From NCBI GenBank assembly GCA_002294185.1, contig DBFD01000030.1:28740-70972 (forward strand): DNA of 42,233 nt, written 5' to 3'. Source of the stretch: Paracoccus sp. UBA889. Its GTDB lineage: Bacteria > Pseudomonadota > Alphaproteobacteria > Rhodobacterales > Rhodobacteraceae. Both the position numbers and the translations under genes were made by a program. Positions 22,401 through 40,448 of the stretch are shown in pieces (positions within the stretch are counted from its first letter, which is position 1; every line of letters starts with the position of its first letter). The notes beneath the pieces were generated by a model that saw only the letters and a list, made by a program, of their open reading frames with translations, was not told the DNA's origin and searched no databases.

Positions 22401-22417
22401 TTAACGGAATCTTAACC
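22401..22417 (+). promoter_or_regulatory. CtrA-type binding site 1 (TTAAC-N6-TTAACC)
   Basis: TTAACGGAATCTTAACC matches the CtrA full-site consensus TTAA-N7-TTAA and the longer form TTAAC-N6-TTAACC shared by all three sites in this window. No annotated gene lies directly downstream on the plus strand; bfr converges from the right. A small RNA may start just beyond it. Confidence 0.55.
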
Positions 22418-22480
22418 GGAATCAGTTCATAACGGTCCTCGGCCGGAACCGAGGCACGAAGGCCAGACCAAGGCGCGCGT

Positions 22481-22517
22481 CCCGCCATCCTTCCGCTGCC
22501 ATCAGGGGGATGGCGGG
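22481..22517. terminator. Long-loop hairpin at the 3' end of bfd-bfr
   Basis: CCCGCCATCC and GGATGGCGGG form a perfect 10-bp stem with a 17-base loop, 11 bases beyond the bfr stop codon. There is no strong T-run on either strand, but the position between convergent units fits a terminator. Confidence 0.6.
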
Positions 22518-22528
22518 GCGACGTCCGC

Positions 22529-23014
22529 CTATTCGGCCTCGTCGGCGGGCTTGGCGTTCAATTGGCCGAAATTCTGCGCGCCAATGGTGTCATGCAGTTC
22601 GATCTGGGTTTCCAGATAGTCGATATGGCCTTCCTCGTCGGCGATCAGTTCCTCGAACAGGACCTTGCTGACGTAATCGCCGACCTTCTCGCAATGATCA
22701 CGGGCCTCGATATACAGGGTCCGCGCGTCATGTTCGGCGGCGAGGTCGCTTTCCATCGTTTCCTTCAGGTTCTGCCCGATCCGCAGCGGATCCAGCTTTT
22801 GCAGGTTCGGATGGCCTTCGAGAAAGATGATCCGCTGGACCAGCCGGTCGGCATGATGCATTTCCTCGATCGATTCGGCCCGCGACTTGTCCGCGATCCG
22901 TCCATAACCCCAATCTTCTTGCAGCCGGTAATGCAGCCAATACTGGCTGACGGCCGTCAGTTCAGACCGGAGTGCGGCGTTGAGATACTCGATGACCTTG
23001 GCGTCGCCCTTCAT
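22529..23014 (-). CDS. bfr: Bacterioferritin
   Basis: The 161-residue protein is full length for Bfr. All ferroxidase ligands are at the standard positions: Glu18, Glu51, His54, Glu94, Glu127 and His130. Met52, the heme ligand at the dimer interface, is also present (EEMHHADRL). Twenty-four subunits form a shell that oxidises and stores iron. The ATG at 23014 has GGAGGA about 8 bases upstream. The reading frame starts inside the end of the upstream bfd gene, a 53-base overlap, so synthesis is coupled to the ferredoxin that releases the iron. Confidence 0.97.
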
Positions 23015-23255
23015 GACCGGAATCCTCCTTCTTGTCCGTGTTCACCCGCAGGATCGGCGGGGCGACGCCCAGACTATCGCAGCGGCGCATGGTGTCCAGA
23101 AACAGCTTCATGCAGCCGCCGCAATCGGGGCGCTGGCCCAGTGCGTGATAGACCTTGCCCGGGGTGATGATCGTTTGCGGATCGGCGGCACGCATCCAGT
23201 CGATGGCGGCGCGAATCTGATGATCGGTGATCTGGGTGCAATGGCAGACGATCAT
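22962..23255 (-). CDS. bfd: Bacterioferritin-associated ferredoxin
   Basis: This [2Fe-2S] protein has 97 residues. The ligands are Cys4 and Cys6 ([11 protein letters not shown]) with Cys45 and Cys48 ([11 protein letters not shown]), the usual Bfd spacing, and [10 protein letters not shown] between them. Bfd docks on bacterioferritin and passes electrons to the heme so that stored iron is released. The ribosome site is CCAGGAG before ATG 23255. The C-terminal 30 or so residues are polar and basic, and most of them lie in the 53 bases shared with the start of bfr, so they may exist mainly because of the overlap. Iron-dependent control is likely, but I see no certain Irr or RirA site upstream. 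Confidence 0.92.
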
Positions 23256-23394
23256 GGAAAACTCCTGGATGAGCGAAACCTAGTGAATTTGTCGGGCATG
23301 TAAAGCCCGCCTTTTTCGCCCGCTCATCACGGCATGGCGAGCGGCCTGCGCGCGATGCTTGACCCGCGGCCCCGTCAGGCGCAGAAGCCCGGCC

Positions 23395-24441
23395 ATGAAA
23401 CTGTCCGATTTCGATTTCGAACTGCCCGAGGGGCTGATCGCTACGCGGCCGGCCCGCCCGCGCAGCGCGGCGCGACTGTTGCTGGCCGAGGACGGGACCA
23501 TCGCGGATCGTGTTGTCAGCGATCTGCCCGCGATCCTGCGACCCGGCGACCTGCTGGTGCTGAACGACACCAGGGTCATCCCCGCGCGCCTGACCGGCAG
23601 CCGCGAACGCGATTCGGCGCAGGGGGCCGTCAGCGCCAGGATCGAGATCACGCTGCTGGAACCGGCCGCCGATGGCTGGCGCGCGCTGGCCAAACCGCTG
23701 CGCAAGTTGCGCGAGGGCGAGGTGATCCGTTTCGGACCACAGCTTTCGGCCGAGGTCGCGGCGATCGGGCAGGGCGAATTGCAGTTGCGGTTCGATGCCA
23801 CGGGCGAGGCATTCGACGCTGCGCTGGCGCAGGTCGGCGCGATGCCGCTGCCGCCCTATATCGCCAGCCTGCGCGCACCCGACAGCCAGGACCGGCAGGA
23901 TTACCAGACGGTCTGGGCCGCGCGGCGGGGTGCCGTCGCCGCGCCCACGGCCAGCCTGCATTTCGATGAGGCGCTGCTGGCCGCCCTGGACGCCCGCGGC
24001 GTGGAATTCGTCCACGTCACGTTGCATGTCGGCGCGGGCACCTTTCTGCCCGTCAAGGTCGAGGACGTGACGACGCACCGGATGCACGCCGAATGGGGCG
24101 AGGTCACGCCGGACGCGGCGGCGGCAATCAACCGCGCCAGGTCCGGGGGCCGGCGCGTCATCGCCGTCGGCACCACGGCGCTGCGACTGATCGAAACGGC
24201 CGCCGCCGGAGACGGCCGGATCGCCCCGTTCGAGGGCATGACCGACATCTTCATCTATCCCGGTTATCACTTCCAGGTGACAGATGGGCTGATGACCAAT
24301 TTTCACCTGCCCAAATCGACCCTGCTGATGCTGGTTTCCGCCCTGATGGGGCCCGAAAAGATCAAGCAAATCTATACACATGCGGTATCGCAGCGGTATC
24401 GTTTCTTCAGCTACGGCGATGCGTCGCTCCTGATTCCCTGA
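23395..24441 (+). CDS. queA: S-adenosylmethionine:tRNA ribosyltransferase-isomerase
   Basis: The 348-residue QueA carries the family start [20 protein letters not shown], the motif [49 protein letters not shown] and [15 protein letters not shown], and ends with [11 protein letters not shown]. It transfers the ribosyl part of SAM to 7-aminomethyl-7-deazaguanine in tRNA, giving epoxyqueuosine. I take ATG 23395; an upstream in-frame ATG at 23359 adds arginine-rich sequence. It diverges from bfd over 139 bases. No tgt gene follows; an MFS permease is next. Confidence 0.96.
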
Positions 24442-24547
24442 CGTCGCTTTCCGGCTGGCATCGCCGGGCACACGGGATTAGGGCGGGCGATCTGATGAAA
24501 CGGGTCTTCCGGACCCCTGGCGACACCCTGACGAAACGAGACGAGAC

Positions 24548-25819
24548 ATGACTTCGGTGATGCGCAGCACCTGGCCCCTGCTTCTGGGGATGCTTCTTCT
24601 GATGATCGGCAACGGGATGCAGGGCACGCTTCTGGGGATCCGTGGCGGCATCGAGGGGATTCCCACCTTCCAGATGTCCGTTGTCATGTCCGGCTATTTC
24701 GGCGGCTTCCTGCTGGGCAGCCTGGTCGTGCCCGGCGTGATCAAGAATGTCGGCCATGTCCGTGTCTTCGCGGCCCTCGGATCACTGATCTCGGCAGCGG
24801 TGGTGCTGTATTCGATCCAGCCGGACTGGATCGTCTGGACGCTTCTGCGGGTCATGGTGGGGTTCTGCTTCTGCGGGGTCTATATCACCGCCGAAAGCTG
24901 GCTGAACGCAAGTTCGACCAACGAGAACCGGGGACAGGCGCTGGCGGCCTACATGATCACCCAGCTTCTGGGGATCGTGATCGCGCAGGGGCTGCTGAAT
25001 ATCGGCGATCCGGCGGGATACCTGCTGTTCATCATCCCGTCTGTCCTGGTTTCGCTGGCCTTCACGCCGATCCTGCTGACTGCCCGGCCCGCCCCCAACT
25101 TCGAGACGATCAAGCGCATGTCCTTTGCCCGGCTCTACGATGCCTCGCCGTTGGGCTGCGTGGGCGTGTTCCTGATGGGCGGGGTCTTCTCGGCGCTTGC
25201 GGGCATGTCGTCGGTCTGGGGCGCGTCGATCGGGCTGTCGGTCGCACAGATATCGCTGTTCGTGGCGGCGATCTATTCGGGCGGGCTGGTGCTGCAGTAT
25301 CCGCTTGGCTGGGTGTCGGACCGCTGGGACCGGCGCCGGCTGGTGCTGATCCTGTCGGCCGTGGGCGCGCTGACGACGCTGGTCGTGGTGGTGGTGCAGC
25401 CCGGTACGCTGGGGCTGGTGGTCGCGGGGGCGATCATGGGCGGCGTGGCGAACCCGATCTACGCGGTTCTGCTGGCCTATACCAACGACTATCTCGATCA
25501 GTCGGACATGGCCGCGGCATCGGCGGGGCTGCTGTTCATCTATGGCGTCGGATCCTTTGGCGGCCCGCTGATCACCGGCTGGATGATGGCGCAGATGGGA
25601 CCGTCGGGGTTCTGGGCCTATATGGGCGTGCTGATGCTGGCGCTGGCGATCTATGCGGGGTGGCGGATGACCCGGCGCCGGGCGCTGACCCCGGACGAAC
25701 AGGGCAACTACGCCGTCATCACCCCCGGCAACACGCAGCTTGTGGTGGGGGCGGCCCTGGACGATGCGCAATCCTCCGGCCAGGCCGACGCGCAGGACGC
25801 GCCGCCCCCCGCCGCCTGA
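24548..25819 (+). CDS. MFS transporter, YcaD-like
   Basis: This 423-residue polytopic inner-membrane protein has about 12 hydrophobic segments in two halves, the MFS loop motif between helices 2 and 3 in weak form, and a clear WVSDRWDRRRLVL loop in the second half. The phrases GFCFCGVYITAESWLN and ANPIYAVLLAYTNDYL resemble the YcaD/TMEM180 group of MFS permeases. The C-terminal tail is cytoplasmic, acidic and proline/alanine-rich. The substrate is unknown. It lies 106 bases after queA and 74 bases before the lipoamide dehydrogenase gene, so cotranscription is possible but not shown. Confidence 0.85.
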   Translation: MTSVMRSTWPLLLGMLLLMIGNGMQGTLLGIRGGIEGIPTFQMSVVMSGYFGGFLLGSLVVPGVIKNVGHVRVFAALGSLISAAVVLYSIQPDWIVWTLLRVMVGFCFCGVYITAESWLNASSTNENRGQALAAYMITQLLGIVIAQGLLNIGDPAGYLLFIIPSVLVSLAFTPILLTARPAPNFETIKRMSFARLYDASPLGCVGVFLMGGVFSALAGMSSVWGASIGLSVAQISLFVAAIYSGGLVLQYPLGWVSDRWDRRRLVLILSAVGALTTLVVVVVQPGTLGLVVAGAIMGGVANPIYAVLLAYTNDYLDQSDMAAASAGLLFIYGVGSFGGPLITGWMMAQMGPSGFWAYMGVLMLALAIYAGWRMTRRRALTPDEQGNYAVITPGNTQLVVGAALDDAQSSGQADAQDAPPPAA

Positions 25820-25893
25820 GATCGGGGCCGATGCTTGCCGCTGCCGGGGGATTGGTTTAACGCTGAACCATCTTGACCGAGCGGGGGGAACCA

Positions 25894-27285
25894 ATGGCCC
25901 AGAATTTCGACATGGTGGTGATCGGTGCGGGGCCTGGCGGCTATGTCGCGGCGATCCGGGGCGCGCAACTGGGGCTGAAGGTGGCCTGTATCGAACGCGA
26001 GCATCTGGGCGGCATCTGCCTGAACTGGGGCTGCATCCCGACCAAGGCCCTGTTGCGCAGCGCCGAGGTCTTTCACCTGATGGAACGCGCCAAGGATTTC
26101 GGTCTCAGCGCCGAAGGGATCGGCTATGACCTGAACAAGGTCGTCGATCGTTCGCGCGGGGTGGCCAAGCAATTGTCGGGCGGTATCGGGCATCTGTTCA
26201 AGAAGAACAAGGTCACAACCATCATGGGCGAGGCCAGGCTGGCCGGCAAAGGCAAGGTGACGGTCAAGACCGACAAGGGCAGCGAAGAGGTCACGGCCCG
26301 GTCGATCATCATCGCGACCGGCGCGCGGGCCCGCGAATTGCCGGGGCTGGAACCGGATGGCAAGCTGGTCTGGAACTACAAGCACGCATTGAAGCCGCCG
26401 CATATGCCGAAAAAGCTGCTGGTCATCGGATCGGGCGCCATCGGCATCGAATTTGCCAGCTTCTTCAACACGCTGGGGGCTGATACCACCGTGGTCGAGG
26501 TGATGGACCGCGTTTTGCCGGTCGAGGATTCCGAGGTCTCCGCCTTTGCCAGGAAAGCCTTCGAAAAGCAGGGCATGACCATCATGGAAAAGGCGACGGT
26601 CACGAAACTGGACCGGGCCAAGGACAAGGTCACCGCCCATATCGAGAAGGACGGCAAGACCAAGACGATCGATTTCGACACGGTGATTTCCGCCGTCGGC
26701 ATTGTCGGCAATGTCGAGGGGCTGGGCCTGGAAGAGGCCGGCGTCAAGGTCGACCGCAGCCATATCGTGACCGACGAATATTGCCGCACGGGCGTCGATG
26801 GCCTGTTTGCCATCGGCGACGTGGCGGGGGCGCCCTGGCTGGCGCACAAGGCCAGCCACGAAGGCGTCATGGTCGCCGAACTGGTCGCGGGCGGCCATCC
26901 GCACCCGATCAAGCCGAACTCGGTCGCCGGCTGCACCTATTGCCAGCCGCAGGTCGCATCCGTCGGGCTGACCGAGGCCAGGGCCAAGGAACAGGGCTAT
27001 GAGGTCAAGGTGGGCAAGTTCCCCTTCATCGGCAACGGCAAGGCGATCGCCCTGGGCGAGGCCGAGGGTTTTGTCAAGACCGTCTTCGACGCCAAGACCG
27101 GCGAGCTTCTGGGCGCGCACATGATCGGCGCCGAAGTCACGGAACTGATCCAGGGCTATATCGTCGGGCGCCAGCTTGAGACGACCGAGGCCGAACTGAT
27201 GGAATCCATTTTCCCGCACCCGACGCTGTCAGAGATGATGCATGAATCGGTGCTGGACGCCTATGGCCGGGCGATCCATTTCTGA
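25894..27285 (+). CDS. lpd: Dihydrolipoamide dehydrogenase (E3)
   Basis: The 463-residue flavoprotein has the FAD site VVIGAGPGGYVAAIRGAQLG, the redox disulfide in GGICLNWGCIPTKALL, a second Rossmann motif VIGSGAIGIEFASFF for NAD, and the C-terminal catalytic HPTLSEMMHE contributed across the dimer. It reoxidises dihydrolipoyl groups of pyruvate, 2-oxoglutarate or branched-chain dehydrogenases or the glycine system. I chose ATG 25894, where similarity starts; an upstream in-frame start at 25873 adds seven residues. No E1 or E2 gene is adjacent, so the complex it serves cannot be told. Confidence 0.96.
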   Translation: MAQNFDMVVIGAGPGGYVAAIRGAQLGLKVACIEREHLGGICLNWGCIPTKALLRSAEVFHLMERAKDFGLSAEGIGYDLNKVVDRSRGVAKQLSGGIGHLFKKNKVTTIMGEARLAGKGKVTVKTDKGSEEVTARSIIIATGARARELPGLEPDGKLVWNYKHALKPPHMPKKLLVIGSGAIGIEFASFFNTLGADTTVVEVMDRVLPVEDSEVSAFARKAFEKQGMTIMEKATVTKLDRAKDKVTAHIEKDGKTKTIDFDTVISAVGIVGNVEGLGLEEAGVKVDRSHIVTDEYCRTGVDGLFAIGDVAGAPWLAHKASHEGVMVAELVAGGHPHPIKPNSVAGCTYCQPQVASVGLTEARAKEQGYEVKVGKFPFIGNGKAIALGEAEGFVKTVFDAKTGELLGAHMIGAEVTELIQGYIVGRQLETTEAELMESIFPHPTLSEMMHESVLDAYGRAIHF

Positions 27286-27301
27286 ACGGCGTCACGACAC
27301 A

Positions 27302-27316
27302 AATCCCTTGGGGATT
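27302..27316. terminator. Small hairpin between lpd and the Hint-domain gene
   Basis: AATCCC-TTG-GGGATT is a perfect 6-bp stem placed between two convergent stop codons. It has no T-run, so its terminator role is a guess. Confidence 0.3.
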
Positions 27317-28458
27317 CAGGCTTCGTTCACCAATTGCCGGCTGTTCTTGACGTGCCGCTGTGCCAACTTGCGGCCTTCGCGGCCGTTCAGCAGGCGTCGC
27401 GCGCCGGTGGATCGGAAACCCGGATCGGACAGATGCGGAAACAGGGCGAGGATTTCGCGCCGCGCCGCGCCGCTGACGGCTTTCAGCGCCTCGGGGCCGG
27501 TATAGAGGCTTTCGGTCCAGGCGCCGTTGGACCGGACCACCTCGTGATCGTCGAACAGCATGTGATGATAGCTGACACCAAGCGCGGGATTGACGATCTC
27601 GATCCCCGGCAGGCCCAGAAGGTGTTTGGCGGCCACCAGGATTTCGTCCTCGCCGAACATGCGCCGGGCGATGACCGATCGCACCAGAACCCGATGCTGC
27701 GGCGACACCCGCAGATCGCGCGAGGGAAAGCCGGGCGCCAGCGCATCCGCGCGGATCAGGATCGGCCGCAGATGGGGTTGCAGATCCAGGCGGTCGCGGC
27801 CCAGCAGCGTCGATCCGATCCAGCGCAAGACCCGAAAGCCGTTGTCGCGCGTCAGCACCATGTCGCCGGCCGACAGCGTTTCGATCGCCTGCGCGCCGAA
27901 CATCGTCTCGATCATCGTTCCGGCGGTAAAGCAGATTGCCGCCTGGGGGGCGTAGGCGACGCTGGCATATCCGTTGCCGAACCCCTTCTCCGAGACATAG
28001 GAGAAGGTCGCATTGACATCGAATTTGGGAAATGTCGTCTTCCCCGTGCTGGCATCGGTCACCGGCAGGGGCGTGATCAGGATGGCCTTGCGGCCCCCGA
28101 CCATGTTGCCGAAACTTCCCCGCGTTCCATTGATGAAGGGAAAGTTGGCCAGGAAGCGGTTGCCGTCTGCATCCTTGATGATCGAGCCGCGAAACACCGA
28201 CAGCCGGTTGCCTGCGGCGACAAGGTCGGGACCGAACGCGGTATCGGAGACGAGAAATTGTTCCAGGTCGGTCGAATAGCGCGGCACCTCGAAATTGGGA
28301 TCATCGTCGAGAACGGCGACAGTGCTGACACGCGCCCCCGACATCGTGAACGAGTTTTGCCTGTACCAGGGCTCGAACACCGTGTTGGTGCTGCTGCCGA
28401 TGGGCGGCGGCGAGTCCAGCGTCACCATCGTGATCTTGTATTCGCTCAGTTCCGCCAT
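27316..28458 (-). CDS. Hint-domain (hedgehog/intein-type) protein
   Basis: The 380-residue protein has an N-terminal region of about 170 residues that I do not recognise, rich in beta-type and Gly/Asn sequence. The Hint module follows: block A starts at Cys176 (ICFTAGTMIET) with ALSAGDMV-type spacing (IETLSAGDMVLTRDNG), and a block B-like segment SPQHRVLV has His255. YHHMLFDDHEVV follows. No splicing Asn plus Cys/Ser/Thr ends the domain, so self-cleavage or a structural role is more likely than intein splicing. Such Hint proteins are frequent in Rhodobacterales and are sometimes large secreted proteins. There is no N-terminal signal peptide. A CtrA-type site lies 87 bases upstream of ATG 28458. 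Confidence 0.8.
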   Translation of the reverse strand: MAELSEYKITMVTLDSPPPIGSSTNTVFEPWYRQNSFTMSGARVSTVAVLDDDPNFEVPRYSTDLEQFLVSDTAFGPDLVAAGNRLSVFRGSIIKDADGNRFLANFPFINGTRGSFGNMVGGRKAILITPLPVTDASTGKTTFPKFDVNATFSYVSEKGFGNGYASVAYAPQAAICFTAGTMIETMFGAQAIETLSAGDMVLTRDNGFRVLRWIGSTLLGRDRLDLQPHLRPILIRADALAPGFPSRDLRVSPQHRVLVRSVIARRMFGEDEILVAAKHLLGLPGIEIVNPALGVSYHHMLFDDHEVVRSNGAWTESLYTGPEALKAVSGAARREILALFPHLSDPGFRSTGARRLLNGREGRKLAQRHVKNSRQLVNEA

Positions 28459-28502
28459 CCGCCCCCCGCCACCGTGCCTGTCCTGTTCCCGGACGTTCCG
28501 GC

Positions 28503-28527
28503 CGCGGGTGATCGGCCCGCGCTTTTT
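28503..28527 (+). terminator. Intrinsic terminator oriented rightward, between two leftward genes
   Basis: CGCGGG-TGATCGG-CCCGCG is a perfect 6-bp stem followed by CTTTTT on the plus strand. Both neighbouring genes run leftward, so it would stop a transcript antisense to the Hint-domain gene, for example read-through from lpd. On the leftward transcript it would be a leader hairpin. Confidence 0.5.
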
Positions 28528-28545
28528 CGCGGTTTACCGGCAGAT

Positions 28546-28562
28546 GGTTAAAGAAGGGTTAA
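28546..28562 (-). promoter_or_regulatory. CtrA-type binding site 2 upstream of the Hint-domain gene
   Basis: On the minus strand this reads TTAACCCTTCTTTAACC and continues AT, so it meets both the TTAA-N7-TTAA full site and the TTAACCAT half-site described for CtrA. It starts inside the last codons of the GlxA-type regulator and ends 87 bases before the Hint-domain start, pointing toward that gene. Confidence 0.65.
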
Positions 28563-29605
28563 CGCGATCGTGACAAAGGCCGGTCGGTTCCGGGCCGGCC
28601 CGATCCATGCACGGTCGGTGCATTCTCGCCGCCGTTCGGCGCCGCTCCGGTGCCGCGTTCGCGATAGGGGGTGCTGCCATATTGCGCGCGGTAGCATTTG
28701 GAGAAATGCGACGGGCTGGAAAAGCCCGAAGCCAGCGCCACTTCGATGATCGACATCTCGGTCTGCATCAGCAGGTTCCGGGCGCGGGCCAGCCGCGTCT
28801 CCATGTAATACCGCTTGGGACTGCGGTTCAGATAACGGCGAAACAGGCGTTCCAGCTGCCGAGTGGACATGCCGGCATCGCGGGCCAGGGTGGCCGGACT
28901 GATCGGATCTTCCAGATTGCCCTCCATCCGCGCGATCACGGCGGCCAGTCGGGGATGGCGAACGCCGATCCGCGTCGGGATCGACAGGCGCTGACGGTCC
29001 TGATCGGTGCGGATCGCGGTGTGCAGCATCTGGTCGGCCACCTCGGCCGCCAGCGCGTCGCCATGCCATTCCGCAATCAGATGCAGCATCAGGTCGATGG
29101 ACGAGGTGCCGCCCGCCGCCGTCAGCCGGTTGCCATCATGCACGAAAACCGAACGGTAGAGATCGACCTCGGGGAAAGCCTCGGCCAGACCGTCGTGGTT
29201 TTCCCAGTGGATCGTGGCCTTGCGGCCGTCCAGCAGACCGGCCTCGGCCAGAACCCAGGCGCCGGTGCAGACCGCGCCGATCCCGGCGCCGCTGCGGGCC
29301 TGCTTGCGCAGCCAGTTCAGCACCGGTTTCGTCGCCACGCGCGCGATCCCGATGCCGCCGCACAGGATCACCACGTCGTCGCGCCCGAAGGCGATCTCGG
29401 CGTCCAGCCCGCCATCCAGTTCCACGCGGGCCCCGTTGGAGCAGACGGCGACATCCCCTCCGGGCCCGATCAGGCGCCATTCGAACAGCGTTTTTCCGGC
29501 GGCCCGATTCGCCAGCCGCAAGGGTTCGATCGCGGCGGCGAAAGGCAGCATCGTGAAACGGTCGAGCAGCAGGAAGGTGAAACGGCGTGGCTTGTCGGCG
29601 GACAT
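28559..29605 (-). CDS. GlxA-type AraC-family transcriptional regulator
   Basis: The 348-residue protein has an N-terminal DJ-1/PfpI-like amidotransferase domain ([28 protein letters not shown], and [18 protein letters not shown] at the usual nucleophile elbow) and a C-terminal AraC HTH pair ([20 protein letters not shown] and [20 protein letters not shown]). The pattern is close to Rhodobacterales regulators of carnitine, choline or dimethylglycine use (GbdR/CdhR group). I take ATG 29605, where similarity starts; ATG 29635 is an alternative and neither has a strong ribosome site. It diverges from the DAHP synthase gene. Target genes are unknown, although a BCCT betaine-type transporter lies 8 kb to the right. 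Confidence 0.87.
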
Positions 29606-29755
29606 CGGACTGGCTTTGTTGTCGATGAGGCACATCAGCAGGGATTTCGCGCCGCCGCAAGGGGCGGTTGCCGCGTCCGCAAGGCTTCGCCACCCTTTCC
29701 CTTGACGCGGTTCGGCCCTATACCGGCCCGACCATTTTTTCAAGGAGTGCGCGCC

Positions 29756-31162
29756 ATGACGCAGGAGACCCGCAAGACCGCCGCCCGGAACTGGGACAAG
29801 GCCGGCTGGCGTGCCTATCCGCGCGTCCAGATGCCGGACTACACCGATGCCGCCGCGTTGCAGATGGTCGAGGCGCAGTTGCGCCGATATCCGCCGCTGG
29901 TCTTTGCGGGCGAGGCGCGGCGCCTGCGCGAGCAACTGGCCGAGGTCGCAGCGGGCCGCGCCTTTCTGTTGCAGGGCGGCGATTGCGCGGAAAGCTTCGC
30001 CGAATTCAGCGCCGACAACATCCGCGACACCTTCAAGGTTCTGCTGCAGATGGCCGTCGTGCTGACCTGGGGCGCGCAATTGCCGGTCGTCAAGGTCGGC
30101 CGCATGGCCGGGCAATTCGCCAAGCCGCGCAGCGCGCCGACCGAGACCGCGAACGGGGTCGAACTGCCCAGCTATCGCGGCGACATCGTCAACGGCTTCG
30201 ACTTTACCCCCGAGGCGCGGATTCCCGACCCGCAGCGGATGCTGGCCGCCTATACGCAGGCGGCGGCGTCGCTGAACCTGCTGCGCGCCTTCTCGACCGG
30301 CGGCTATGCCGACATGCACCGGGTCCAAAGCTGGATCGCCGATTTCGTCGGCGGCCCCGAGGCCGCGAAATACCGCGACATCGCCGATCGCATCCGGGAC
30401 GCCATGGCCTTCATGCAGGCGGCGGGTGTCAATTCCGACACGGCGCATCAATTGTCCAAGGTCGATTTCTATACCAGCCACGAGGGTCTGCTGCTGGAAT
30501 ACGAAGAGGCGCTGGCCCGGATCGACACGACGACCGGACTGCCGGTCGCCGGTTCGGGCCACATGATCTGGATCGGCGACCGCACGCGGCAGCCCGATGG
30601 CGCGCATGTGGAATTCTGTCGCGGCGTTCAGAACCCGATCGGCCTGAAATGCGGCCCGACGACCACGCCCGACGATCTGAAGGTGCTGATGGAAAAGCTG
30701 AACCCCGACAACGAGGCCGGCCGGTTGACCCTGATCGCACGCTTCGGCGCCGGCAAGGTCGGCGATCATCTGCCGCGCCTGATCAGGACGGTGCAGGAAG
30801 AAGGCGCCAATGTCGTCTGGTCCTGCGACCCGATGCACGGCAACGTCATCAAGTCCTCGTCGGGCTACAAGACCCGGGCCTTCGATTCGATCCTGCGCGA
30901 GGTGCGCGAATTCTTCGGCATTCACAAGGCCGAGGGCACGATCCCCGGCGGCGTGCATTTCGAGATGACCGGCAAGGACGTGACCGAATGCACCGGCGGT
31001 GTCCGCGCCGTCACCGACGAGGATCTGTCGGACCGTTATCACACCGCCTGCGATCCACGCCTGAATGCCAGCCAGTCGCTGGAACTGGCATTTCTGGTGG
31101 CCGAGGAACTGCGCAACCGGCGCGAGACGGCCGCGCCCGGGAAGGACGTGAAGGCAGGCTGA
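29756..31162 (+). CDS. 3-deoxy-7-phosphoheptulonate synthase, class II
   Basis: The 468-residue enzyme is the plant-like, class II DAHP synthase that condenses phosphoenolpyruvate with erythrose-4-P, the first step to aromatic amino acids. Motifs are [43 protein letters not shown] and [15 protein letters not shown]. It differs from the E. coli AroFGH type in length and sequence. A good ribosome site (CAAGGAGTGC) precedes ATG 29756. It stands alone, ending in an 11-bp hairpin at 31184-31211. Confidence 0.96.
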
Positions 31163-31183
31163 ACACGGCCCCCGCGCCCGGAG

Positions 31184-31211: not shown

Positions 31212-31241
31212 GTCGTTCCGGACCGTGGCGATGTCTGTCCA

Positions 31242-31258: not shown

Positions 31259-31270
31259 GCGAAGGCAGGC

Positions 31271-32968: not shown

Positions 32969-33097
32969 GCCGTCCTCCGTCGCGTCCTTGCAGGCGGCCA
33001 CAGAACCCCATCGCCCGGCCAAGGTCCAGAGCCGGGGCCACTTGCCGCGCGGGCCAGCCTGTGTTTGCCTTCACTCCGGCGGATGAGGAGGCCACGA

Positions 33098-33859
33098 ATG
33101 ACTTTGACGGCAGGGACTTTCCGCGACCATTTCAGGGCCGGCGGCAAGGCAATCAACGGCTGGTGCGGCATCCCGTCGCCGGTCACGACCGAAATCCATG
33201 CGCATGCGGGCTATGATCTGCTGACCATCGACATGCAACACGGGCTGGTCGGCTATGCCGACATGCTGGCGATGTTGCAGGCGATGTCTGCCAGCCCGGC
33301 GCCGAAATTCGTGCGCATCCCGTGGAACGAACCCGGCATCGCGATGAAGGCGCTGGATGCCGGGGCCGACGGAATCATCTGCCCGATGATCAACAGCGCC
33401 GACGAGGCGCGCGCGCTGGTCCGGGCCGCGCGCTATGCGCCGCTGGGCGCGCGCAGCTACGGGCCGGTGCGGGCCGGCGCCCTGCATGTCGACTACGTCG
33501 CCCGCTCGGCCGATCTGGTGCAGGTCTTTGCCATGATCGAGACGCGCGAGGCGCTGCGAAACCGCCACGAGATCATGGCGGTCGAGGGGCTCAGCGGGGT
33601 CTATGTCGGCCCCGCCGATCTGGGCTTGTCGCTGGGCTACGCCCCCACGCTGAACCCCGAGGCGGTCGAGGTGCTGCAGGCAATCGGCGATGTTCTGGCG
33701 GCGGCGCGGCAGGCGGGATTGCTGGCCGGCGTGCATTGCGGCGATGGCGCGATGGTGCGCGCGATGCTGGGACAGGGATTCGATTTTGCCTCGCTGGCCA
33801 CCGATACCGGGCTGTTCACGCGCGCGCTCGGCGCCGCGCTGGCCGAAGCGCGGGGATAG
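33098..33859 (+). CDS. HpcH/HpaI aldolase family protein
   Basis: The 253-residue protein follows the class II pyruvate aldolase pattern: GWCGIPSPVTTEIHAHAGYD, IDMQHGLVGYAD with His48, the phosphate/pyruvate region GADGIICPMINSADEA, MIETREAL for the metal Glu, and VYVGPADLGLSLGY for the metal Asp. Family members cleave 2-keto-3-deoxy acids or 4-hydroxy-2-oxo acids, releasing pyruvate. Which substrate is used here cannot be told. The ribosome site GAGGAGG lies 7 bases before ATG 33098. It faces hisH and ends before a hairpin at 33918-33940. Confidence 0.88.
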   Translation: MTLTAGTFRDHFRAGGKAINGWCGIPSPVTTEIHAHAGYDLLTIDMQHGLVGYADMLAMLQAMSASPAPKFVRIPWNEPGIAMKALDAGADGIICPMINSADEARALVRAARYAPLGARSYGPVRAGALHVDYVARSADLVQVFAMIETREALRNRHEIMAVEGLSGVYVGPADLGLSLGYAPTLNPEAVEVLQAIGDVLAAARQAGLLAGVHCGDGAMVRAMLGQGFDFASLATDTGLFTRALGAALAEARG

Positions 33860-33917
33860 GGCGCGGTTTTGCGCCGCCGGCGCGCGGGACGCGCGCGCCC
33901 CGCCCAGCGGCAGCGAC

Positions 33918-33940
33918 CGGGGCAGGATCTTCCTGTCCCG
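33918..33940. terminator. Hairpin between the aldolase gene and hisH
   Basis: CGGGGCAGGA-TCT-TCCTGTCCCG is a 10-bp stem with one G-U and a 3-base loop, placed between convergent stop codons. There is no T-run. Confidence 0.5.
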
Positions 33941-33952
33941 CCCCCGTCATTG

Positions 33953-34582
33953 TCAGGGGGTCCAGCGCAGGAAATTCGCGATCAGGCGCAGACCGACGCC
34001 TTGCGATTTTTCGGGATGAAACTGTGTGCCGACGATGTTGTCGCGGCCCACCACCGCCGTGACCGCGCCGCCGTAATCGACATGGGCCAGCAGATGCGCC
34101 CGATCCGCTACCCGGAACTGCCAGGAATGGACGAAATAGGCATGATCGCCCGTGCCGATACCTTCCAGGACAGGATGGGGGCGGTCGATGACCAGATCGT
34201 TCCAACCCATATGCGGCACCTTGAGGCCCGGCGCGTCGATCCGCGCCACTTCGCCGCCGATCCAGTCCAGCCCGGCCGTCGGGCGGTATTCGTATCCCGT
34301 CGTCGCCAGCATCTGCATTCCGACGCAGATGCCGATGAAAGGCACGCCGCGATTCAAGACCGCCTCGCGCAGGGCCTCGGCCATTCCATCGACCTCACCC
34401 AGGGCCGCGCGGCAGGCGGGAAAGGCGCCGTCGCCCGGCAGCACGATCCGGTCGGCGCGTGCCGCGATACCCGGATCGGACGTCACAACGATCTCGGCCC
34501 CGACGCTCCGGCCCATCTTCTGGAACGCCTTTTCGGCCGAATGCAGGTTGCCGCTGTCGTAATCGATCAGCGCCACACGCAT
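33953..34582 (-). CDS. hisH: Imidazole glycerol phosphate synthase subunit HisH
   Basis: The 209-residue class I glutamine amidotransferase has nucleophile Cys86 (GICVGMQ) and the His189/Glu191 pair (QFHPEKS). It supplies ammonia to HisF, which forms imidazole glycerol phosphate and AICAR in histidine synthesis. The start is ATG 34582, sharing its A with the hisB stop codon (TGATG); a GTG one codon upstream is also possible. hisA and hisF are not within the window. The next gene leftward is convergent, so this his cluster ends here. Confidence 0.97.
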   Translation of the reverse strand: MRVALIDYDSGNLHSAEKAFQKMGRSVGAEIVVTSDPGIAARADRIVLPGDGAFPACRAALGEVDGMAEALREAVLNRGVPFIGICVGMQMLATTGYEYRPTAGLDWIGGEVARIDAPGLKVPHMGWNDLVIDRPHPVLEGIGTGDHAYFVHSWQFRVADRAHLLAHVDYGGAVTAVVGRDNIVGTQFHPEKSQGVGLRLIANFLRWTP

Positions 34583-35169
34583 CACAGCGCACCCTTGGTC
34601 GAGGGCAGGGCGCCGGACATGCGCGGGTCGGGTTCGACCGCCTCGCGCAGCGCGCGGGCGACCGCCTTGAAGGCGGCCTCGGCGATGTGATGGGAATTGA
34701 TCCCGTCCAGGCGCGCGAGATTCAGGCTGATTCCGCCATGGGTGGCCAGCGCCTGGAAGAATTCGCGCACCAGTTCGGTATCGAAGCCGCCGATCCTTGC
34801 CGACGGGAAATCGACGTTCCAGACCAGATAGGGCCGCCCCGACAAATCCAGCGCGGCGCGGACCAGCGCATCATCCATCGCCAGGAGGAAGTTGCCGTAG
34901 CGGCGGATGCCGGTCTTGTCGCCCAGAGCCTTGGTCAGCGCCTGACCGATGGCGATGCCGGTATCCTCGATCGTGTGGTGGTCGTCGACATGCAGATCGC
35001 CCGTCGCCCGGATCGTCATGTCGATCAGGGAATGGCGCGACAACTGGTCCAGCATGTGATCGAAAAAACCCACGCCGGTCCGGTTGTCATAGGTTCCGGT
35101 GCCGTCCAGGTCGATCGCCACCTCGATCCGGGTCTCGGCAGTGTTGCGGGTGATGGTCGCCTTGCGCAT
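34582..35169 (-). CDS. hisB: Imidazoleglycerol-phosphate dehydratase
   Basis: The 195-residue single-function HisB has the two metal-binding repeats [13 protein letters not shown] and DDHHTIED, then [14 protein letters not shown], with the [10 protein letters not shown] segment between. It dehydrates imidazole glycerol phosphate to imidazole acetol phosphate. ATG 35169 follows AAAGGAAATTCC; an in-frame ATG five codons upstream lacks a site. The gene lies 45 bases after ktrB on the same strand, and it overlaps hisH by one base. Confidence 0.97.
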
Positions 35170-35214
35170 GGAATTTCCTTTCACGACGCGGGCCTTATAG
35201 GGCGGCGCGGCGGA

Positions 35215-36567
35215 TCAGCCAAGATGGACCTGTCCTTCGGGATAGCGCACGCGGGGCGTCGTGCGCGTCGCCAGGAAAAAGCCCAGTGTCAGTGGCCCGA
35301 CCCGGCCCAGGAACATCACCGTGATGATGATGATCCGGCCGAAGGGGTTCAGTTCCGAAGTGTAGCCGCGCGACAGGCCGGTGGTGCCGAAGGCCGAGGC
35401 GACCTCGAAGCTGATGTCGAGAAAATAGCCGTCGTGGCTGGCCATCATCAGAAACACCGCCGTGAAGATCAGCACCGAGGCGATGGCGATCAGCGCCATC
35501 ACCTTCAGCACCTCGTCAAGCCCGATGGACCGCCCGAAGGCCCAGATCTCGGTCCGGCGGCGGAAGAAGGCCAGGGTCGCCAGCAACATCACCACGATGG
35601 TCGTGACCTTCAGCCCGCCCCCGGTCGAGGTCGGGCCGGCGCCGATGATCATCAGCGCCATGTAGAGCAACGAGGTCGAATCGTGTAGCCCACCGATATC
35701 GACGGTGTTGAAGCCGGCCGTGCGGGGCGTCACGCCCTGGAACCAGGCCACCGTCATCCGCGCGACCGGGCCGTCATATTGCGCCAGCGTCAGCGGATTG
35801 TTCCATTCCAGGATCGCCGTCAGCCCCACCCCGATCACGATCAGCGCCGCCGTTCCCACCAGCATCAGCCGCGTATGCAGGGTCCAGCCATACCAGAAGC
35901 GCCGGTTCCAGACATCCGACACGACCACATAGCCGATCCCGCCCAGAATGAAGAGGCCGGGGATGACGATGTTGACCAGCGGATCGGTCGCATAGCGGAC
36001 CAGGCCCTCGGAAAAGGTCGAGAAACCGGCATTGTTGAAGGCCGAGACGGAATGGAAGACCGCGTCCCACAGGCCGGGACCAAGCCCCTCGCGGGGCATG
36101 AAGCTGAGCGACAGCAGCATCGCGCCCGCGATCTCGGCCATCAGCGCCACGCGGAAGATGGTAAAGACCAGTTGCGTCAGGCGGACATAGGACGTCTGGT
36201 TCAGATCCTCGCGCAGATAGGTGTGGTGCGTGATGCGCAGCGGCAGGCCAAGCGCGGACCAGACCAGCACGGCGAAGGTCATCAGCCCCAGCCCGCCAAG
36301 CTGGATCAGCACCGCAACGACCACCTGCCCCCAGAAGGTCAGATCGAGTTCGGTGTCGATCACCGAAAGACCCGTCACCGTCACCGCCGAGGTCGAGGTG
36401 AAGATCGCATCCGAAAAGCTGATCGCCCGCGTGGTCGTGAAGGGCAGCATCAGCGCCAGCCCGCCGGCAAGGATCAGCGACAGGTACAGGACCGCCAGCA
36501 CGGCCGGCGGCGGCGTGCGCGACAACCAGCCCCGGAACGCGGCCAGCGGATGCGTCCGCACGCTCAA
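35215..36567 (-). CDS. ktrB: Potassium uptake membrane subunit (KtrB/TrkH family)
   Basis: The 450-residue channel-like protein has four pore loops, each with the selectivity Gly: STSAVTVTG (58-66), SAFNNAG (175-181), VTPRTAG (279-285) and SAFGTTG (391-397). The length and short N terminus fit KtrB better than TrkH. It imports K+ through the inner membrane with a gating ring made by the upstream subunit. The start is a TTG at 36567 whose bases overlap the ktrA stop codon (TTGA), so translation is coupled. A GTG at 36561 is an alternative. Confidence 0.93.
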   Translation of the reverse strand: MSVRTHPLAAFRGWLSRTPPPAVLAVLYLSLILAGGLALMLPFTTTRAISFSDAIFTSTSAVTVTGLSVIDTELDLTFWGQVVVAVLIQLGGLGLMTFAVLVWSALGLPLRITHHTYLREDLNQTSYVRLTQLVFTIFRVALMAEIAGAMLLSLSFMPREGLGPGLWDAVFHSVSAFNNAGFSTFSEGLVRYATDPLVNIVIPGLFILGGIGYVVVSDVWNRRFWYGWTLHTRLMLVGTAALIVIGVGLTAILEWNNPLTLAQYDGPVARMTVAWFQGVTPRTAGFNTVDIGGLHDSTSLLYMALMIIGAGPTSTGGGLKVTTIVVMLLATLAFFRRRTEIWAFGRSIGLDEVLKVMALIAIASVLIFTAVFLMMASHDGYFLDISFEVASAFGTTGLSRGYTSELNPFGRIIIITVMFLGRVGPLTLGFFLATRTTPRVRYPEGQVHLG

Positions 36568-37223
36568 ATCCGGTCGCCGAACCGGGTCAGATCGACGCGC
36601 TTGCCCAGCAGCAGCAGGCGGTCATTCGTGTTCAGCACCGGATCGGCCTTGCCGCGCAGGTCGATATATTCGGTTCCGCGCATCATCCCAAGCGCGGTGA
36701 TCCCCTCGCCGATGTTCAGTTCGGACAGTGTCTTGCCCTTCAGTCGCTCGGGAAGCATCAGGTTCACGACCGAAAAGCCGTTACCAAGCGCGACGTAATC
36801 CTGCACCGCCGGATTGTTCAGCATCTGTGCGGTGTGGCGGCCCATCTCCAGTTCCGGCAGAACCACGCGGTCGGCGCCGATCTTGGACAGGATGCGATGG
36901 TGGGTGCGGTTTTCGGCCTTGGCCCAGACCGAGCCGACGCCGATCAGGCGCAGGTTCATCGCCGCGATCACGTTGCTTTCCAGATCGTTGCCGATCGAGA
37001 CCAGCGCCACGTCGTAGCGGTCCACCCCGGCCTCGCGCAGCGCGCCCTCGTCGGTGGCGTCGAGGATCACCGCATTCGACAATTGCTCGGCCAGGGCCGC
37101 GACCCGACGCTGGTTCTTGTCCACGCCCAGAACGCGGTTGCCGAACCGCGCCAGTTCGGATGCAACCACGCTGCCGAAGGAGCCGAGGCCGACGACGACA
37201 AAGCTGCGATTCTGCTTGCCCAT
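36564..37223 (-). CDS. ktrA: Potassium uptake regulatory subunit (KtrA/TrkA-type RCK protein)
   Basis: The 219-residue cytoplasmic protein has an RCK N domain with the nucleotide motif VVGLGSFGS (10-18) and acidic Asp35 at the end of the second strand, and a C-terminal RCK C domain ending in LLLLGKRVDLTRF. KtrA rings bind ATP/ADP or NAD and gate KtrB. ATG 37223 follows CCGGAGGGTCC; upstream in-frame starts lack a site. It is the first gene of ktrA-ktrB and shares a 366-base divergent upstream region with the BCCT transporter gene. Confidence 0.93.
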   Translation of the reverse strand: MGKQNRSFVVVGLGSFGSVVASELARFGNRVLGVDKNQRRVAALAEQLSNAVILDATDEGALREAGVDRYDVALVSIGNDLESNVIAAMNLRLIGVGSVWAKAENRTHHRILSKIGADRVVLPELEMGRHTAQMLNNPAVQDYVALGNGFSVVNLMLPERLKGKTLSELNIGEGITALGMMRGTEYIDLRGKADPVLNTNDRLLLLGKRVDLTRFGDRI

Positions 37224-37589
37224 GGACCCTCCGGAGGACCGAGTCGAGACGGCGGCGATACTGCTCATGCAGGACGGCCGGGGTCAAGCCGGGCCACCGC
37301 AGCCGCTTCTTGCACCCGCCGGGATCACGCCTGGCAAGGGCGCGACCGGCCAGCCCGATCCGGTTCCCAGACCGAGCCGCGTGTTTTCGCGGACGGATTC
37401 CGCATTGGCGCCGGCGGACAAAGCGGCCGATGTCGCAACCCGCGTTGCCCGGGTCGCATTTGTCCGCCACTTTCGCGCCCCTTGTGGCCATTCTGAAGAG
37501 AATGTGACAGAAACCCGGTTCCACGCGCGGATTTCCGCCAGTCACGGCTGATCCGCCGCCCCGATCCAATCATAACGAGAAAGGGACGC
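37224..37589. other. Divergent control region between ktrA and the BCCT transporter gene
   Basis: This 366-base region has no supported gene; frames through it are arginine/proline-rich shadows. It must hold the promoters for K+ uptake to the left and the BCCT transporter to the right. I see no clear sigma70 pair and no long perfect inverted repeat. The less GC-rich part is near 37480-37525 (CCATTCTGAAGAGAATGTGA), which is a possible promoter zone for the transporter gene. Confidence 0.5.
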
Positions 37590-39323
37590 ATGACAGATTC
37601 GACACAGCCCAAGGGGCAGAAGAACGTCAAGGGCCGGCCCGGCGACGAACGCCGCGAACGCGAGGCGCTGAAAGGCCGCTTCGAGCCCGATCCCGAACCC
37701 GATATCGAGGCGATACCCGCGCCCGAGGGCCCCACCCAGGTGATCCAGACGGATTACGAGATCGGCCAGCACAATATCGAGGGCAAGAAACCCTTTCCCT
37801 TCGATGTTCACAACCCGGTCTTCATGATCTCGGCCGTCACCATCGTGCTGTTCACGCTGGTGACGATGCTGTTTCCCACTCAGCTCGAACCCGTGTTCCT
37901 GCAGATGCGCGACGGGTTGACCAGCAATCTCGACTGGTTCTTCCTGCTGTCGGGCAATGTCTTCGTGCTGCTGTGCCTGGGGCTGATCCTGTCGCCGCTG
38001 GGGACGATCCGTCTTGGCGGACCCGACGCGACGCCGGATTTCAGCCTGTCGGGCTGGTTCGCGATGCTGTTCGCGGCCGGGATGGGGATCGGGCTGATGT
38101 TCTATGGCGTCAGCGAACCGATCAGCCATTATCAGACCGCGCTTGGCGGGGTCACGATGGAAGGCGGCGTGCGCACCGACTGGGCGCCCCTGGGCGGCGC
38201 GCAGGGCAACGAGATGGAGGCCCGGCGCCTGGGCATGGCCGCGACCATCTTCCACTGGGGTCTGCATCCCTGGGCGATCTATGCGATCGTGGCGCTTGCG
38301 CTGGCCCTGTTCGCCTATAACAAGGGTCTGCCGCTGACCATGCGGTCGATCTTCTATCCGCTTCTGGGCGAACGTGTCTGGGGATGGCCGGGACATGTCA
38401 TCGACGTTCTGGCGGTTTTTGCCACGATCTTCGGTCTGGCAACCTCGCTGGGCTTCGGGGCGGAACAGGCGACGGCGGGCCTGAACTTCCTGTTCGGTAT
38501 CTCGAACTCGAACACGACCAAGATCATCCTGATCGTCTGCATCACCGGAATCGCGACGATGTCGGTCGTGCTGGGTGTCGAGAAGGGCGTCAAGCGGCTG
38601 TCCGAGATCAACATGGTGCTGGCCTTGGTCCTGCTGCTGTTCATCATCTTCTTCGGCCCCACGATCGAGATCTTCCGCGGCTTTTTCGGCAACCTGGGCG
38701 CCTATGCGCGGGAACTGGTGCCGCTGTCGAACCCGTTCGGGCGCAGCGACGACAACTTCCGTCAGGGCTGGACCGCTTTCTACTGGGCCTGGTGGATCAG
38801 CTGGTCGCCCTTCGTCGGCATGTTCATCGCCCGCGTCAGCCGCGGCCGGACGGTGCGTCAGTTCCTGATCGCGGTGCTGATCGTGCCCTCGGTCATCTCG
38901 ATCCTGTGGATGACCGCCCTGGGCGGCACCGCCATCACCATGACCGTGGGCGGGTTCGAGGGTATCGCCGATGCGGCGCTGGAGCTGAAGCTGTTCCAGA
39001 TGCTGGGACAATTGCCGCTGACCTCGATCACCAGCTTCGTGGGCATCATCCTGGTGATCGTGTTCTTCGTGACCTCGTCGGACTCGGGCAGCCTGGTCAT
39101 CGACACGATCGCGGCCGGTGGCAAGGTGAACGCGCCGATCCCGCAGCGCATCTTCTGGTGCAGCTTCGAGGGTCTGGTGGCGATCGCGCTGCTGCTGGGC
39201 GGCGGCCTGACCGCCTTGCAGGCCATGGCCGTCTCGACCGGGCTTCCCTTCACCATCATCCTGCTGATCGCCTGCTGGTCGATCGTGAAGGGTCTGATTG
39301 CCGAACGGCGAGAACTTGCCTGA
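37590..39323 (+). CDS. BCCT-family transporter (betaine/choline/carnitine type)
   Basis: This 577-residue secondary transporter has about 12 membrane segments after a hydrophilic N-terminal tail of about 70 residues, rich in charged residues and proline. Family motifs are AAGMGIGLMFYGVSEP with the flexible Gly-Met-Gly, TIFHWGLHPWAIYAIV, FAYNKGLPLTMRS and AWWISWSPFVGMFIARVSRG. The GMGIG sequence resembles Na+-coupled betaine carriers such as BetP rather than proton-coupled choline carriers, but this is not decisive. The long charged N terminus could sense osmotic state, as suggested for relatives. It ends in a strong terminator. Its divergent neighbour is the K+ uptake operon. Confidence 0.92.
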   Translation: MTDSTQPKGQKNVKGRPGDERREREALKGRFEPDPEPDIEAIPAPEGPTQVIQTDYEIGQHNIEGKKPFPFDVHNPVFMISAVTIVLFTLVTMLFPTQLEPVFLQMRDGLTSNLDWFFLLSGNVFVLLCLGLILSPLGTIRLGGPDATPDFSLSGWFAMLFAAGMGIGLMFYGVSEPISHYQTALGGVTMEGGVRTDWAPLGGAQGNEMEARRLGMAATIFHWGLHPWAIYAIVALALALFAYNKGLPLTMRSIFYPLLGERVWGWPGHVIDVLAVFATIFGLATSLGFGAEQATAGLNFLFGISNSNTTKIILIVCITGIATMSVVLGVEKGVKRLSEINMVLALVLLLFIIFFGPTIEIFRGFFGNLGAYARELVPLSNPFGRSDDNFRQGWTAFYWAWWISWSPFVGMFIARVSRGRTVRQFLIAVLIVPSVISILWMTALGGTAITMTVGGFEGIADAALELKLFQMLGQLPLTSITSFVGIILVIVFFVTSSDSGSLVIDTIAAGGKVNAPIPQRIFWCSFEGLVAIALLLGGGLTALQAMAVSTGLPFTIILLIACWSIVKGLIAERRELA

Positions 39324-39346
39324 ACAGGCGGCGTCAATCACAGTGG

Positions 39347-39378
39347 CGGGCGGGGTTTTCCCCGCCCGTTCTTGTTTT
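39347..39378 (+). terminator. Intrinsic terminator of the BCCT transporter gene
   Basis: CGGGCGGGG-TTTT-CCCCGCCCG is a perfect 9-bp stem followed by TTCTTGTTTT. It is the clearest factor-independent terminator in the window, 23 bases past the stop codon. Confidence 0.85.
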
Positions 39379-39431
39379 ATGGTCCGCGCGGTGCCAAAAC
39401 CGTTGCTGACGCCACCGAAGGACCGACGCCG

Positions 39432-40073
39432 ATGAGCGAAATTTCCGTCAGCGAACGCCGCCTCAGCGCCGCGCTGGACCGCATCGACCAGATCCTCGAA
39501 GCCGGCACCGGCCGAGGCGCGCAATCCCCGGCCACGCAGTCCGATCAGGACCAGGCGCTGGCCGCCGCGCAGGCCGAGGCCGACCGTCTGGCGCAGGAAC
39601 TGGCCGCTCTGCGTGCCGATCGCGGCGGCCCGCTGGAGGCGGCATTGGCCGAGGCGCGGGCCCGGCTGGACGGCGCCGGCCAGCAGGCGGCTCGCCTGGC
39701 CGCCGCGAACGAGGAACTGACCGCTGCCAACCGCGCGCTGATCGACGCCGCCGGGCAGGGTGACGCAGATCCCGCGATTCGGCGCGCGCTGGAGGCCGAG
39801 ATCGAATCCCTTCGCGCCGCGCGCGAGGCCGAATTGTCGCAGATGGGCGATATCATGGTCGAACTGGAACGCCTGCTGGCCGAGGATCAGGTGCCCGCCG
39901 CACCGGGACAGATTGTCGATCCGACGCTGGAAGCCGCGGGGGACGAAGCCGGCGTGCCCGAGGCGCCCGAAGCCCGGCAGACCGGAAAAGACGGCCTGCC
40001 CAGCGATCACGACGAACGGTCCGGGAATGGCGGGGTCGCGGATGACGATGGCTTTCAGGAGGGAAACAGGTAA
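39432..40073 (+). CDS. Coiled-coil protein encoded upstream of zapA, function unknown
   Basis: The 213-residue acidic protein has no signal peptide or membrane segment. Residues about 5-25 and 45-150 are heptad-rich, with Ala/Leu/Glu patterns (AQAEADRLAQELAALRAD, LEAEIESLRAAREAEL), so it is likely one long coiled coil. The last 60 residues are disordered and acidic. The TAA stop shares its A with the zapA start (TAATG), so the two are cotranslated; a role at the division site is inferred only from this. ATG 39432 follows AAGGA with 9 bases between. I know of no name for it. Confidence 0.8.
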   Translation: MSEISVSERRLSAALDRIDQILEAGTGRGAQSPATQSDQDQALAAAQAEADRLAQELAALRADRGGPLEAALAEARARLDGAGQQAARLAAANEELTAANRALIDAAGQGDADPAIRRALEAEIESLRAAREAELSQMGDIMVELERLLAEDQVPAAPGQIVDPTLEAAGDEAGVPEAPEARQTGKDGLPSDHDERSGNGGVADDDGFQEGNR

Positions 40074-40435
40074 TGGCCGAGGTCGCATTCACCATCGGGC
40101 ACAAGGAATACAGCCAGGTCGCCCAGGACGGCGAAGAGCGGCTGCTGCAACGTGCGGCCTCGGTCCTCGATGCCGAGGCGCAGCAGATCCTGGAACAGAC
40201 GGGCCGGATGCCCGAGCCGCGCCTGCTGCTGCTGGCCGGGCTGATGTTGGCGGATCGTTTCGCGGTGATGGAGGAGCGCGCCGAAAAGGCCGAACGCCAT
40301 CTGAACCGGCTGCAATCGAACCCGGCCCGTGTCGAGGTGCCGGTGATCCCCTCGGATTTGAAAGAGGCCATGGCCGAGCTGGCCGCCCGCGCCGAATCGC
40401 TGGCCGAGAAGCTGGAGGAACAGCAGGGGTCTTAA
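40073..40435 (+). CDS. zapA: Cell division protein ZapA
   Basis: The 120-residue protein matches ZapA: an N-terminal beta/alpha domain (EVAFTIGHKEYSQVAQDGEE) and a C-terminal helix with coiled-coil heptads (ADRFAVMEERAEKAERHLNR, then LAARAESLAEKLEEQ). ZapA cross-links FtsZ filaments at mid-cell. The start overlaps the preceding coiled-coil gene by one base. The stop codon TAA is part of a perfect CtrA-type site (40432-40448). The short length and lack of enzymatic motifs fit the family; the assignment relies on general pattern rather than a single signature. Confidence 0.85.
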   Translation: MAEVAFTIGHKEYSQVAQDGEERLLQRAASVLDAEAQQILEQTGRMPEPRLLLLAGLMLADRFAVMEERAEKAERHLNRLQSNPARVEVPVIPSDLKEAMAELAARAESLAEKLEEQQGS

Positions 40436-40448
40436 CGCTTTGTTAACC
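40432..40448 (+). promoter_or_regulatory. CtrA-type binding site 3 at the zapA/lipoprotein junction
   Basis: TTAACGCTTTGTTAACC fits TTAA-N7-TTAA and the extended TTAAC-N6-TTAACC. It overlaps the zapA stop codon and ends 5 bases before the first ATG of the lipoprotein gene. A promoter using it would start near 40465-40475, so the lipoprotein mRNA may begin at its second ATG (40469). Confidence 0.6.

Follow-up and report, generated by a model that had tools for sequence, protein, structure and literature searches.

Three CtrA-type boxes in a Paracoccus genome: conserved sites before a Hint-domain gene and a small lipoprotein gene with a putatively leaderless mRNA, and a candidate small RNA

The window analysed here, a 42,233-nucleotide stretch of DNA from Paracoccus sp. 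UBA889, contains three short sites of identical motif that lie between genes or at gene ends. The sites, the neighbouring genes and the elements predicted from them are as follows.

22401..22417 (+): site 1, CtrA-type box TTAACGGAATCTTAACC, between gph and bfr, with A at index 28 and a -10-like CATAAC
22440..22529 (+): candidate small RNA, with a predicted start at about 22440, a conserved GAGGC and, ahead of the stop of bfr, a GC-rich hairpin of some length
22529..23014 (-): ferritin-family gene bfr (PF00210), convergent with site 1
27316..28458 (-): gene for a Hint-domain protein of 380 aa (PF13403 at residues 175-321), the proposed target of site 2
28546..28562 (-): site 2, CtrA-type box TTAACCCTTCTTTAACC, with a predicted start at about 28524, 66 nt before the Hint ATG
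28559..29635 (-): AraC/GlxA-type regulator gene, best NCBIfam match GbdR at 361.2 bits, below the cut-off of 480
40073..40435 (+): zapA (PF05164), whose TAA stop lies within the first TTAA of site 3
40432..40448 (+): site 3, CtrA-type box TTAACGCTTTGTTAACC of the lipoprotein gene, with the presumed -11 A at 40459 and a predicted start at about 40470
40469..40765 (+): gene for a small lipoprotein of 98 aa with lipobox Cys13; counted from the first T of the box, its ATG is at 37 nt

The motif TTAAC-N6-TTAACC occurs exactly at 22401-22417 (+), 28546-28562 (-) and 40432-40448 (+), as a first-pass annotation of the window had read it, and all three sites also satisfy TTAA-N7-TTAA exactly. In 100 dinucleotide shuffles of the window the longer motif was found 0 times in each. 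The earlier count of eight TTAA words, six of which make up the three paired sites, was confirmed, as was the rarity of the word, since the shuffles contained a mean of 17.4. The first-pass annotation also placed every site in non-coding DNA, which holds for site 1 but not entirely for the other two: site 2 runs into the stop codon at the end of the AraC/GlxA-type gene, and site 3 into that of zapA.

Across the whole genome (3.24 Mb, 79 contigs), TTAAC-N6-TTAACC gave nine strand hits at seven places, three of them in the window, against 0 for the reversed control. The looser TTAA-N7-TTAA was present at 17 places versus 11 for its reversed control, which by itself is weak evidence for enrichment of the motif, and TTAAC-N(0-24)-TTAAC with all gaps pooled was rarer than its reversed control (16 versus 71 strand hits). 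The signal therefore sits in the fixed gap. With palindromic hits merged by hand, nine of the 13 distinct TTAAC-pair places in this genome (gaps 0-24 nt) had a gap of N6, so that the check set beforehand by the first-pass annotation, whether genome-wide occurrence is no higher than chance, did not refute it. The same preference was found in the nine genomes of the genus with complete listings, this one included, where N6 accounted for 56 of 140 TTAAC-pair places and the runner-up among the 25 possible gaps, N5, for 11 of 140. Five of the 17 TTAA-N7-TTAA places in this genome, site 1 included, are more than 400 nt from any called gene start. That TTAA words cluster by chance in intergenic DNA and at AT-rich stop codons, for which one could cite the TAA stop inside two of the three sites and the modest excess of TTAA-N7-TTAA over the reversed control, is scarcely credible in view of the gap preference for N6 and of the conservation of the TTAA blocks at site 3 round a diverged spacer (mean pairwise identity 0.92 versus 0.40, with 0.35 for the stretch from box to ATG).

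The genome encodes a CtrA ortholog (NCBIfam equivalog NF045991, 402.8 bits, cut-off 350), the best PDB sequence match of which is the CtrA chain 4qpj_C, residues 1-118. Its gene adjoins a ligA-like gene, and in the 74 nt of upstream sequence covered there is a box, at 70 nt, with a single mismatch in its core. TTAA-N7-TTAA is also found 62 nt upstream of a CckA-like kinase gene of partial sequence (NF046020, 241 bits, below the cut-off of 1000); another such place is beside a PAS-domain gene, and two more are those near the comM- and coaBC-like genes and the muramidase fragment described below. According to excerpts of published work, Rhodobacterales CtrA regulons include ctrA, cckA and divL (PMC2877005, PMC4046655), and the CtrA site of Dinoroseobacter shibae is TTAAC-N5-GTTAAC (PMC7232146). 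The box that had been called extended is therefore the known Rhodobacterales box. What the window's sites have in common with the full CtrA sites of D. shibae and Caulobacter (TTAA-N7-TTAA) is their sequence, gap and position near -35, and such sites also neighbour ctrA and a CckA-like gene; nothing essential differs, the targets here being a Hint protein and an unnamed lipoprotein. That these are ordinary CtrA boxes is thus well supported by sequence and comparison, and the CtrA reading of the first-pass annotation gains from the N6 preference, from the ortholog scoring above its cut-off and from the boxes that relatives keep upstream of the Hint and lipoprotein genes. It is very unlikely that a different regulator with a TTAAC half-site, for example one of Crp/Fnr type, binds instead or competes with CtrA. 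The D. shibae Dnr/Fnr site TTAAC-N4-GTCAA does have the half-site of CtrA in the excerpted report (PMC7232146), but here the gap is fixed at N6, the halves are direct TTAAC repeats, and boxes precede the CckA-like gene and, with one mismatch, ctrA, as in Rhodobacterales (PMC2877005, PMC4046655). Among the titles and abstracts searched we found no CtrA study of Paracoccus, nor anything on point for zapA, CtrA and lipoprotein, or for CtrA and the Hint domain.

The best explanation of the whole, and in our judgement a highly probable one, is that all three are full CtrA binding sites of ordinary Rhodobacterales type, each in an activated promoter. Phosphorylated CtrA would bind over the -35 region at each of the three sites, and RNA polymerase would start about 23-24 nt past the box. 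This places the predicted starts as in Rhodobacter sphaeroides, where the mapped CtrA promoters, in the part of the study available, start 23-24 nt past the box and have an invariant A at -11 (PMC6180460). Paracoccus would thereby gain three concrete, testable CtrA targets. CtrA could instead mainly repress, or block read-through from zapA and the AraC-type gene, without activating anything downstream. Two of the boxes do overlap the stop codons of upstream genes, and CtrA half sites over the -10 region repress in Caulobacter, as excerpted (PMC4287350). However, measured from the predicted starts, the first T of the box falls at about -38, close to where CtrA activates in Caulobacter and R. 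sphaeroides (PMC4287350, PMC6180460, in part), and at site 3 the box lies anywhere from -4 to +34 from the zapA stop, yet at a constant distance from the lipoprotein ATG. We therefore regard repression as unlikely, and activation as the preferred role of the three sites.

Site 2 would drive the Hint-domain gene, and the transcript would have a leader of about 66 nt, the end of the box being 88 nt from the Hint ATG. Among the 19 full-length homologs fetched from the genus (further partial matches, such as that of G004 at residues 40-366, were left out), 15 had a perfect TTAA-N7-TTAA upstream; in G011 and G015 the core of the box had a single mismatch, and no box was seen upstream in G018 and G010. 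The spacer of the box varies between species, and TA is present at index 26/27 or 27/28 after the box in 12 of the 15 Hint promoters. An AraC-type motif was found upstream of nine of the 19 homologs and not found in 10, so the box belongs with the Hint gene and not with the AraC-type gene. None of 11 paralogs from the genus that match in the domain only had a perfect core upstream, although for three of these controls (L115, L116 and L122) just 60-105 nt before the farthest start were covered; one, L120, had a box with one mismatch. In a further 29 Hint loci, 28 outside the genus and one inside, a perfect TTAA-N7-TTAA was found once (L224), the upstream stretch being shorter than 350 nt in 13 of them. 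In locus L224 (G184, another genus) the match is an exact TTAAC-N6-TTAAC, at 91 nt before the farthest start of the Hint gene. Among the matches listed outside the genus, most begin past residue 100 and a few at residues 38-82, with about 40% identity.

At site 3 we compared the 3' flank of zapA in 123 of 125 genomes of the genus, leaving out G113, which has no zapA, and G138, which is fragmentary. Both box and lipoprotein gene were present in 33 genomes, the lipoprotein gene only in two, the box only in one and neither in 87. A box with at most one core mismatch was found in 33 of 35 genomes with the lipoprotein versus one of 88 without; the search for the lipoprotein covered about 560 nt from zapA, and genes farther away, as in L301, count as without. 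The core was perfect in 27 of the 34 boxes at this position. Site 3 was rejected as a zapA-linked element because the box stands at a constant distance from the lipoprotein ATG but at a varying one from zapA. Beyond the genus, the lipoprotein and its box were also found in two loci, in Alkalilacustris brevis and a Rhodobacterales MAG, with the ATG at 38 nt; in both, tblastn detected no zapA within about 4 kb. Since the box is kept in these two loci with no zapA detected in that stretch, the lipoprotein is not tied to cell division. Thus, of the division-linked lipoprotein proposed by the first-pass annotation, the lipoprotein gene with a conserved box before it stands and the link to division does not. 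Eleven of the 13 named lipoprotein loci are from Paracoccus, P. siganidrum among them. The lipoprotein sets were A1, with 20 of the 33 lipoproteins, and A2, with the window protein and 12 of the 13 named loci (L309 left out). The protein had no Pfam or NCBIfam match. Its structure model has a mean pLDDT of 86.8 and a beta-beta-beta-alpha-beta order, and none of 535 matches of the model in the PDB reached an E of 0.001, the best being 0.023.

The spacing of this promoter varies little. The distance from box to ATG was 37-40 nt in all 33 genomes, with the start among several Met codons chosen as the one nearest to 38.5, a choice that favours constant spacing in genomes with repeated Met codons. 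The standard deviation was 0.7 for this distance, compared with 6.0 from the box to the lipobox Cys codon and 11.2 from the box to the zapA stop. In the named loci the ATG was 38-40 nt from the best box in 13 of 13. ATG 40454 was rejected as the lipoprotein start, an ATG at box +37 to +40 having been found in 33 of 33 genomes. The start codon also moves with the base expected at -11. Among 27 non-redundant promoters, A27 went with an ATG at 37/38 in 14 of 14 and A28 with an ATG at 39/40 in 13 of 13. In four loci new to this count the rule was kept in two (L301 and L310) and broken in two, L304 having A27 with the ATG at 39 and L311 no A at 27/28.

Given that CtrA-dependent transcripts of R. 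sphaeroides start 23-24 nt past the box with A at -11, as the excerpted study describes (PMC6180460), the +1 of the lipoprotein transcript would fall at the ATG or no more than 2 nt off. Because the start codon coincides with this predicted transcription start, the mRNA is probably leaderless, a conclusion drawn from the spacing and the covariation of A and ATG. Site 3 would accordingly be the promoter element of the small lipoprotein gene, its mRNA having no leader, and the promoter is an unusually regular one from which to infer leaderless expression. The lack of a ribosome-binding site is not clear-cut, since eight of 26 lipoprotein genes have an SD-like 4-mer ahead of the ATG, versus 15 of 26 window genes and a background of 10%. 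The 5'-RACE-mapped, CtrA-dependent fla2 promoters of R. sphaeroides share the distance from box to start and the A at -11; their start codons, in the excerpted account, are 12-33 bp past the start site, whereas the lipoprotein ATG is at the predicted +1 (PMC6180460). In Caulobacter, the excerpts give a CtrA motif at -32 of the leaderless start of CCNA_01391 (PMC4287350); the lipoprotein gene would share with it a CtrA site before a leaderless transcript. Unlike that case, the spacing here is conserved over many species, and the transcript start is predicted rather than mapped. With a start codon that moves with the -11 base over 27 promoters, the idea that a cell-cycle regulator drives a leaderless mRNA can be put to the test.

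Site 1 is the least certain of the three as to its target. A box was found at the matching place in five of 71 genomes (G000, which is this genome, G023, G083, G107 and G130), 128-155 nt from the bfr stop; the count covers 71 of 75 loci, the four without bfr being left out, and the close relatives G081, G055, G067, G096 and G061 are not included. A gph gene lies upstream of bfr in 48 of the 71 genomes and was not located in the G130 stretch. A DNA search of 125 genomes with the site 1 region matched 81 of them, the best places being mostly the bfr end. An ORF at 22286-22372 (+; 28 aa) matches the YohP membrane-protein family PF25659. It was rejected as the target of site 1, since it stops short of the box.

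Between the predicted start and the stop of bfr, two main hairpins were found in G023, G083, G107 and G130, and the 5' hairpin is short in this genome. RNAalifold on A3 gave 27 pairs, nine of which were changed on both sides in at least one sequence, and the likeness of the noncoding part between G023 and this genome exceeded that seen in 500 shuffles. After site 1, no ORF of 12 codons or more recurred over the five species, save related ones in the near-identical G083 and G107. In a search of the window no Rfam family matched at its gathering cut-off, the best weak match being Atu_Ti1 (22.7 bits, cut-off 55, E 0.099).

Site 1 could drive a short RNA that is not translated and runs toward the 3' end of bfr, and we put this possible small RNA at about even odds. 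Almost as probable, at slightly less than an even chance, is that site 1 drives nothing, in which case the long hairpin would only terminate bfr and the box would be a remnant, for example of a VPLPA-CTERM-like gene since lost but found at that place in relatives. In G012 and G115 a box lies farther upstream in the gph-bfr interval, in G012 before such a gene. Covariation in the whole element did not exceed that of column shuffles of the four non-redundant sequences (z -1.03, 46/300), nor did that of the 3' part (z 0.13, 152/300), and weighing the whole-element shuffles in full raised the standing of the remnant slightly. The short 5' hairpin of this genome and the absence of a T-run behind the long GC-rich hairpin point the same way, and that hairpin may be simply the bfr terminator. 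Against a remnant, however, all five genomes with the box have an A at index 27 or 28 on the + strand, and the 5' hairpin, which begins at the predicted start, covaries beyond column shuffles of the same four sequences (z -5.46, 2/300). The small RNA suggested by the first-pass annotation gains some support from these comparisons and is the least certain of its proposals.

The VPLPA-CTERM-like gene lies between gph and bfr in G012, G003 and G017 (loci L140, L145 and L143); a CtrA-like box precedes it in G012, while in G003 and G017 the upstream boxes are degenerate.

For the small RNA that we propose at site 1, the nearest likeness is with Caulobacter, where transcripts with a CtrA motif include six non-coding RNAs in the excerpted report (PMC4287350), the common trait being a CtrA box before a noncoding transcript. 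The element here matches no Rfam family at the cut-off, and the resemblance lies in the arrangement. Taken jointly, a wider reading is that Paracoccus CtrA controls both an envelope lipoprotein, through a leaderless promoter with an ATG-to--11 register and a spacing kept beyond the genus, and, at the bacterioferritin locus, a small RNA of two hairpins that is so far undescribed. We hold this combination to be possible, a little short of evenly balanced; if true, it would link CtrA to the envelope and perhaps to iron storage.

Further arrangements of the motif were seen elsewhere. Between comM- and coaBC-like genes, two TTAA arrangements overlap (L016, 1485-1516), and a long arrangement like this one (TTAACCTTTCCTTAA...GTTAAC) was found again in several genomes of the genus. 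A TTAAC-N6-TTAAC box also stands about 435 nt ahead of a dnaA-like gene, with an rpsT-like gene on its other side (L025, 1501-1516). The names gph, ligA, comM, coaBC, rpsT and dnaA are presumptive. A fragment of a holin-associated muramidase (L022, 501-809; NF040573, 167 bits, below the cut-off of 240) lies about 690 nt from a palindromic CtrA box; muramidases of this type are known from gene transfer agents.
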